DNA of 64,000 nt from Actinomycetes bacterium (GTDB lineage Bacteria > Actinomycetota > Acidimicrobiia > Spongiisociales > JAHEDJ01). The notes beneath the pieces were generated by a model. The model ran no database searches, was not told the DNA's origin, and worked only from the letters and a program-made list of their open reading frames with translations. Within the stretch, counting starts at the first letter, position 1. Every line of letters begins with the position of its first letter. Shown here one piece after another: positions 12,388 to 13,118 of this stretch. Where the stretch lies: NCBI GenBank assembly GCA_024641245.1, contig JAHEDK010000008.1:1-64000 (forward strand), written 5' to 3'. The translations under genes were made by a program, and so were the position numbers.

Positions 12388-12455
12388 CACGGCGACCTTA
12401 CCGGGCGTGGCGGCAGCCCCGCCGCTATGGTGCTGCCCAACCGGGAGGACACCTA

Positions 12456-13118
12456 ATGCAGGCCGCAGATTTCACCTTGCTCGACCAGGCCGGCCAAGCG
12501 TGGGCGCTCTCTGAGCACCTCGATACGGCCCGGGTGGTGGTCTTCCTCCGCGGTGACTGGTGACCGTACTGCAACGGACAGCTGGTCAGCTTGTCCAATC
12601 GCTACGGGGAGATCACGAGCGCCGGTGGCCGGATCGTCGTCATCACGGTCGATTCGCCTCCGCAGAACGCCGCCATTATCGAGAAGCTGCACTTGCCCTT
12701 CCCGATTCTCAGCGATCCCGATCGCTCTCTGGCGATCGAGCCGTACGGTGTTGCCGATCCAAAGGATCCGCGCAATCTTGCCAGACCATCGATCTTCATC
12801 GTGGCACCGAACCATGAACTCGTCTTCGGCGAAGTGAGCGACGATTTCGCCGATAGGGCGGCTGAAGAGGGAGTAGTGGCCACGCTTCAGGATCTCGAGT
12901 TGCCGCCGACCACACCTGAGATCATCCAGCCAGGACCGGCAGAGCCCGGCCCCAGAGCCATGCCGCTGCATGCCATGGAGCCGTACTTCCGGGGAGCGAA
13001 ATTCGCCGTGACGGCCATGAAGCTGCGTCATCCCGAGGTGGAGGAGGATGCCGCGATCTACATCGCCCAAATGGACCGGTACATCGAGCTGGTGAAAGAG
13101 CTGAGAGGCAAAGCGTAG
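12456..13118 (+). CDS. Peroxiredoxin-like predicted selenoprotein (in-frame UGA at 12561, UxxC motif)
   Basis: The ATG at 12456 has GGGAGG 7 bases upstream. The frame runs to 13118 with one internal stop, TGA at 12561-12563 (codon 36), in the context RGDW-U-PYCNGQL. AhpC/TSA-like peroxiredoxin relatives have RGDWCPYC here, so the TGA replaces the first Cys of a CxxC motif. The thioredoxin-fold domain continues normally after it, with ITVDSPPQNA, FPILSDPDR and PSIFIVAPN. A C-terminal helical extension of about 65 residues follows. A hairpin 12 bases after the TGA fits a bacterial SECIS. Predicted role is thiol-dependent peroxide reduction or disulfide exchange. The alternative is a nonsense mutation or base error, since selA, selB, selC and selD are not in the window. 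Confidence 0.8.
12576..12596 (+). promoter_or_regulatory. Candidate bacterial SECIS hairpin
   Basis: GGACAGCU-GGUC-AGC-U-UGUCC forms eight base pairs (12576-12583 with 12588-12596), one bulged U at 12591 and an apical loop GGUC. It begins 12 bases after the UGA. E. coli fdhF has a similar distance and a GGUC-containing loop recognised by SelB, with its bulged U on the 5' side rather than the 3' side as here. Confidence 0.65.

Follow-up and report, generated by a model that had tools for sequence, protein, structure and literature searches.

The gene and its in-frame UGA

On the forward strand of the window, the whole 64-kb stretch of DNA that we analyzed, positions 12456 to 13118 hold a gene predicted to encode a peroxiredoxin (Prx)-like selenoprotein with a UxxC active site. 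The product would have 220 amino acids, including selenocysteine (Sec) at residue 36, and the frame ends in a TAG at 13116–13118. Its only internal stop is a TGA at 12561–12563, within FLRGDW-TGA-PYCNGQL, assigned here as Sec codon 36 and as the first position of UxxC in RGDW-U-PYC. The initial annotation had reported one frame that continues through this TGA to a normal end, with AhpC/TSA similarity beyond it, and both observations were reproduced. The Pfam AhpC-TSA model (PF00578; 84 bits, E 9.5e-24, with the TGA read as Cys) matched residues 2–122, so that the domain, at 12459–12821 on the forward strand, spans the TGA.

Direct reading of the sequence showed a Shine-Dalgarno motif, GGGAGGA, at 12443–12449 on the same strand, with 6 nt between the motif and the ATG at 12456, and a possible −10 promoter element, TATGGT, at 12426–12431. 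The 20 nt upstream of the start codon were compared in 30 orthologues (L020, L024–L052). In 22 of them TANNNT ended 6–9 nt short of the start and a Shine-Dalgarno motif was missing; the other eight, which include the window's genus, had a Shine-Dalgarno-like motif and no TANNNT. The proximity of TANNNT to the start, together with the missing Shine-Dalgarno motif, suggests leaderless mRNAs in those 22. The gene-neighborhood search found no recurring neighbor beyond small groups of close relatives and therefore gave no clue to an operon or a partner. The analysis also revealed no link between the gene and the adjacent REP/heptad-rich region that the initial annotation had pointed out. An Rfam scan of the 64-kb window returned no family above cut-off.

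Selenocysteine machinery of the genome

The assembly that contains the window is 87.6% complete and consists of 71 contigs. A search of this genome for selA, selB, selC, and selD had been proposed, with a complete genome lacking selB and selC taken as evidence against the reading; all four genes were present. SelA (434 bits), SelB (318 bits), and SelD (399 bits) each scored above their curated cut-offs, with selA lying next to selB on contig C29. The tRNA-Sec (selC) scored 71.9 bits against a cut-off of 47 and has a UCA anticodon; it lies on a different contig, and the tRNA scan of the 64-kb window found none. SelD provides an internal control, having an in-frame TGA itself at the canonical Sec site (SGUACKLG).

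The tRNA-Sec at 131236–131326 (G000:C70; locus L009:9265-14652) directly adjoins a minus-strand ORF that by eye resembles integrases of tyrosine-recombinase type, beyond which lies a long ORF resembling, also by eye, TrwC/TraI-type relaxases. These two neighbors raise the possibility that an integrative element uses selC as its attachment site.

Conservation of the UGA among relatives

In a comparison set of 149 related genomes, all 40 orthologues that cover the site (37 long matches and three fragments) had TGA there, a constancy well outside what chance would give, and no Cys form occurred among these 40 in the order. This answers the call in the initial annotation for a conserved UGA in related genomes. 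The TGA persists although identity between orthologues drops to 42%, and no other in-frame stop was seen in the 30 orthologues inspected residue by residue. All carriers of the gene that are at least 90% complete have selA; the five of the 41 carrier genomes in which selA was not detected are 56–89% complete. Because selA is common in the order anyway (117 of the 149 relatives), its co-occurrence with the gene is consistent with Sec decoding and is not strong evidence by itself. The window's genome yielded no paralogue from this subfamily with Cys at the site; its other two matches were distant (27–29% identical).

A hairpin downstream of the UGA

The DNA just 3′ of the UGA is nearly frozen in the orthologues. 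RNAalifold, run unguided, placed a hairpin of four pairs, a 1-base bulge, and three pairs at alignment columns 26–44, which correspond to 12577–12595 of the window (forward strand). We predict that this is a bacterial SECIS element. Its lower stem pairs 12577–12580 with 12592–12595, the bulge is at 12591, the upper stem pairs 12581–12583 with 12588–12590, and this copy has an extra pair, 12576–12596. Across the aligned orthologues, 99.5% of the cells were paired. In five sequences both sides of pair 27–43 differ, with A-U or G-U replacing C-G, and in five pair 31–38 has U-G for C-G. All 500 shuffles fell short of the covariation score, and slid controls scored much lower.

Codon use, an analysis independent of folding, pointed to the same segment. 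At residues 41, 42, 43, and 45 the codons were GGC in 25/29, CAG in 29/29, CTG in 24/29, and AGC in 29/29 orthologues (the last of six Ser codons), and the mean z for synonymous constraint was 6.5 at these residues versus 0.5 at conserved residues elsewhere. Folding the single sequence, 60 nt from the UGA onward, gave an unexceptional z of −1.0, so the case for the hairpin rests on comparison.

The apical loop (12584–12587) is GGUC, as in the hairpin of E. coli fdhF; in this genome GGUC also occurs in the selD hairpin, about 32 nt past the selD UGA. The distance from UGA to apical loop in our gene is 20 nt. The bacterial SECIS model has a G in loop position 1 or 2 and 16–37 nt between UGA and loop (PMC13188914), and both the loop and the spacing agree with it. 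Five sequences with TTGGCC, together with the folded FxYC orthologues (seven FxYC in all), use a different, neighboring hairpin with the loop AGUU, which also fits the G rule of the model.

Fold and C-terminal tail

The AlphaFold2 model (mean pLDDT 93.8, pTM 0.90) showed a Prx/thioredoxin (Trx) fold followed by a linker and two C-terminal helices, 171–191 and 193–219. Foldseek searches with the whole model returned mainly peroxiredoxins of the BCP, AhpE, and AhpC types, with ResA among them; the nearest solved folds were BCP, AhpE, and ResA.

The helical hairpin (residues 171–219; 12966–13112, forward strand) carries a conserved PYFRGAKFA...R, in which Y177, R179, G180, and R191 are invariant in the orthologue alignment, indicating that the tail is under selection. 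No Pfam model matched residues 171–219, the AhpC/TSA-type domain being the only one recognized, and none of the 50 Foldseek matches listed for the whole model was a separate counterpart of the tail. A C-terminal helical extension had been singled out as a feature of this copy: the helices are present in the model, but they are common to the whole subfamily, including Cys forms in Rubrobacteraceae. As a guess, the hairpin mediates docking of a substrate or partner, or oligomerization.

Active site

In the profile alignment with BCP, Cys39 falls on the peroxidatic Cys, whereas Arg32, Sec36, and Pro111 take the places of the Pro, the Thr/Ser, and the Arg of the peroxiredoxin catalytic set PxxxTxxC...R; Cys39 is the only member of the set that is kept. 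The earlier proposal that Sec replaces the resolving or the peroxidatic Cys must be revised accordingly, as Sec36 occupies the Thr/Ser position of TxxC. In the alignment with ResA, the CxxC of that protein falls on UxxC; this alignment stops before Pro111, which is kept in 26 of 29 orthologues and, judged from sequence alone, stands where a cis-Pro is expected.

A genuine Sec peroxiredoxin, in which Sec36 or Cys39 acts as the peroxidatic residue and peroxides are reduced directly, would suit the AhpC/TSA domain and the solved structures that come closest in fold and in profile (PrxQ/BCP and AhpE), and selenols react fast with peroxides. The replacement of the Pro, Thr, and Arg and the superposition of UxxC on the CxxC of the Trx-like ResA argue against it, and we consider this reading rather unlikely. 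For the same two reasons we prefer a thioredoxin-type UxxC reductase of disulfides (or peroxides), and thioredoxin-like rather than peroxidase chemistry is the probable one. The genome encodes a thioredoxin reductase; an MshC-like protein (mycothiol) scored below cut-off (260 vs. 485 bits).

Cysteine homologues and the Rubrobacteraceae

In the scan of public genomes, homologues that carry Cys and read FYRGDWCPYC turned up across many phyla, including Bacteroidota and Pseudomonadota. They resemble the window protein in the core domain and the active-site signature and are 25–46% identical to it; unlike it, they have Cys at the residue aligned to the TGA, and most stop before the tail. An active site of the RGxWCPYC type belongs to the peroxiredoxin-like family cd02970.

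Cys homologues with the tail were found in Rubrobacteraceae. In the phylum sample, family f33 contained both TGA and TGC orthologues, and because some of its loci are identical to named Rubrobacteraceae records, f33 corresponds to that family. Its proteins share the core and the C-terminal extension of the window protein, many of them having Sec and others Cys; the Cys forms are 34–38% identical to the window protein. The Sec forms retain GCU-GGUC-AGC or GCU-AGUU-AGC past the UGA, while several Cys forms lack the GCU-loop-AGC hairpin sequence and some keep a remnant. The Rubrobacteraceae hairpin differs from that of the window in a 2-nt bulge and a lower stem shifted by one base, and owing to this shift base pairs scored in one fixed register failed to separate Sec from Cys forms (p 0.09); this comparison is given no weight as evidence here.

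In a maximum-likelihood tree, which excludes the Rubrobacteraceae Sec forms found later, the tailed Sec proteins from the order to which the window belongs formed one supported group (96/92) with the RGDFUTYCHG proteins nested inside. A pair with RGDWUPYCCA and the Rubrobacteraceae Cys forms fell outside the Sec group with weak support.

Several variants were seen besides. A sub-branch (L144–L150) has RGDF-U-(T/S)YCHG instead of RGDW-U-PYC, and in several of its members a gene for an Fe-S protein that by eye resembles CCG-domain proteins (LutA/LldE-like) begins immediately downstream. A further Sec group (L133, L134, L166, L181) is marked by RGDW-U-PYCC(A/G)Q and has a different hairpin downstream. 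Other Prx-like genes with an in-frame TGA encode SADW-U-PWC (L139; G105:C191) or FGNI-U-SHE (L137 and L138; G026 and G040), the TGA of the latter lying about at the Prx peroxidatic position. Paralogues with a degraded redox pair also exist: L177, L179, and L180 retain the protein, with RGDWDPYC, RGDWCAYD, or GGDWSAYD at the active site.

Interpretation

The reading as a selenoprotein, put forward in the initial annotation, is supported by the presence of selA, selB, selC, and selD, the conserved UGA, the conserved SECIS-like hairpin, and a single family that contains both Sec and Cys orthologues. On this evidence 12456–13118 is almost certainly a selenoprotein gene. Its product, leaving aside the chemistry and the role of the tail, is very probably a functional UxxC Prx-like selenoprotein.

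The hairpin at 12577–12595 would direct Sec insertion, the UGA being decoded by tRNA-Sec and SelB. The resulting AhpC/TSA-fold oxidoreductase would have a UxxC centre that acts like that of thioredoxin or ResA. The selenolate of Sec36 may attack a disulfide or peroxide substrate, and Cys39 would resolve the adduct as a selenenylsulfide. Re-reduction could then come from the thioredoxin system of the cell or from another thiol, and the two-helix hairpin would probably serve in docking or oligomerization. A bolder proposal, which we regard as doubtful, is that the tail helps to build the active site or recruits a partner of its own. The proteins would then be a separate class of actinobacterial selenoenzymes, acting on a substrate unserved by the known Prx-like selenoproteins, with repeated exchange of Sec and Cys in Rubrobacteraceae.

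The purpose of the arrangement could also be a selenium-dependent switch imposed on the selenoprotein, with the full product made only when selenium is available and a stop after 35 codons otherwise. To our knowledge, a full product that depends on selenium is inherent in all bacterial Sec decoding, and the lack of a same-subfamily Cys paralogue among the matches in the window's genome agrees with such a switch; nothing specific indicates regulation, and we judge it improbable. A pseudogene, or a sequencing or assembly error that put TGA for TGC, might be suspected in an incomplete draft genome where a single base change would yield Cys. We rejected this as a very remote prospect: the TGA recurs in 40 orthologues that span many genera and were assembled independently, which already refutes it, and the downstream residues and codons are under selection. 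A reassigned code, with UGA read as an amino acid such as Trp or Gly in every gene of the organism, would account for the conserved coding sequence past the TGA, but the chance of this is negligible and it was rejected too. TGA is an ordinary stop here: it terminates 26 of the window's 46 long ORFs that do not overlap, and it also closes the frame of several orthologues. Homologues have Cys at the site, and the full Sec system is present.

These proteins represent an unnamed selenoprotein subfamily conserved across a whole order of Acidimicrobiia-type actinobacteria, and standard annotation will cut the gene at codon 35 or start it at an internal codon. The occurrence of selA in 117 of the 149 relatives also shows how common the use of Sec is among these poorly studied bacteria. 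The Sec and Cys orthologues of Rubrobacteraceae, some of them in single-contig, essentially complete genomes, allow direct tests of the contribution of Sec and of the role of the tail.

Comparison with known selenoprotein families

Descriptions of UxxC Prx-like selenoproteins go back to the Sargasso Sea survey, which reported 22 sequences in 2005 (PMC1088965) and bears out the statement in the initial annotation that they are known from metagenomic surveys. They also occur in complete genomes, and five selenoproteins were reported in Rubrobacter xylanophilus (PMC1794560). A 2026 inventory lists UxxC/UxxU Prx-like selenoproteins under PF00578 (PMC13188914). A Rubrobacter member may already be included in these earlier counts. 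Our literature search on UxxC Prx-like selenoproteins of Acidimicrobiia or other actinobacteria found nothing specific.

Among NCBIfam models none reached its cut-off for the window protein. The top-scoring named family, the SelL-related redox protein NF040769, matched residues 2–92 with 45.1 bits against a cut-off of 120 and left the tail uncovered. The peroxiredoxin-like family cd02970 also belongs to the AhpC/TSA family, and its selenoprotein is of the UxxS type, in contrast to UxxC here, a comparison made from the inventory listing (PMC13188914).

The Prx-like thiol:disulfide oxidoreductase (UxxC) family (named representatives from Geobacter and others; WP_010940744.1) combines an AhpC/TSA domain with a thioredoxin-like UxxC, as opposed to the TxxU of Sec peroxiredoxin. 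The window protein has both the domain and the UxxC active site, and it was assigned to this family by domain and motif; the conserved signature RGDWUPYCNGQL and the helical tail would set it apart. The UxxC Prx-like kind is thus already known, and the novelty lies in an actinobacterial subfamily, as yet without a name, whose helical tail is conserved.
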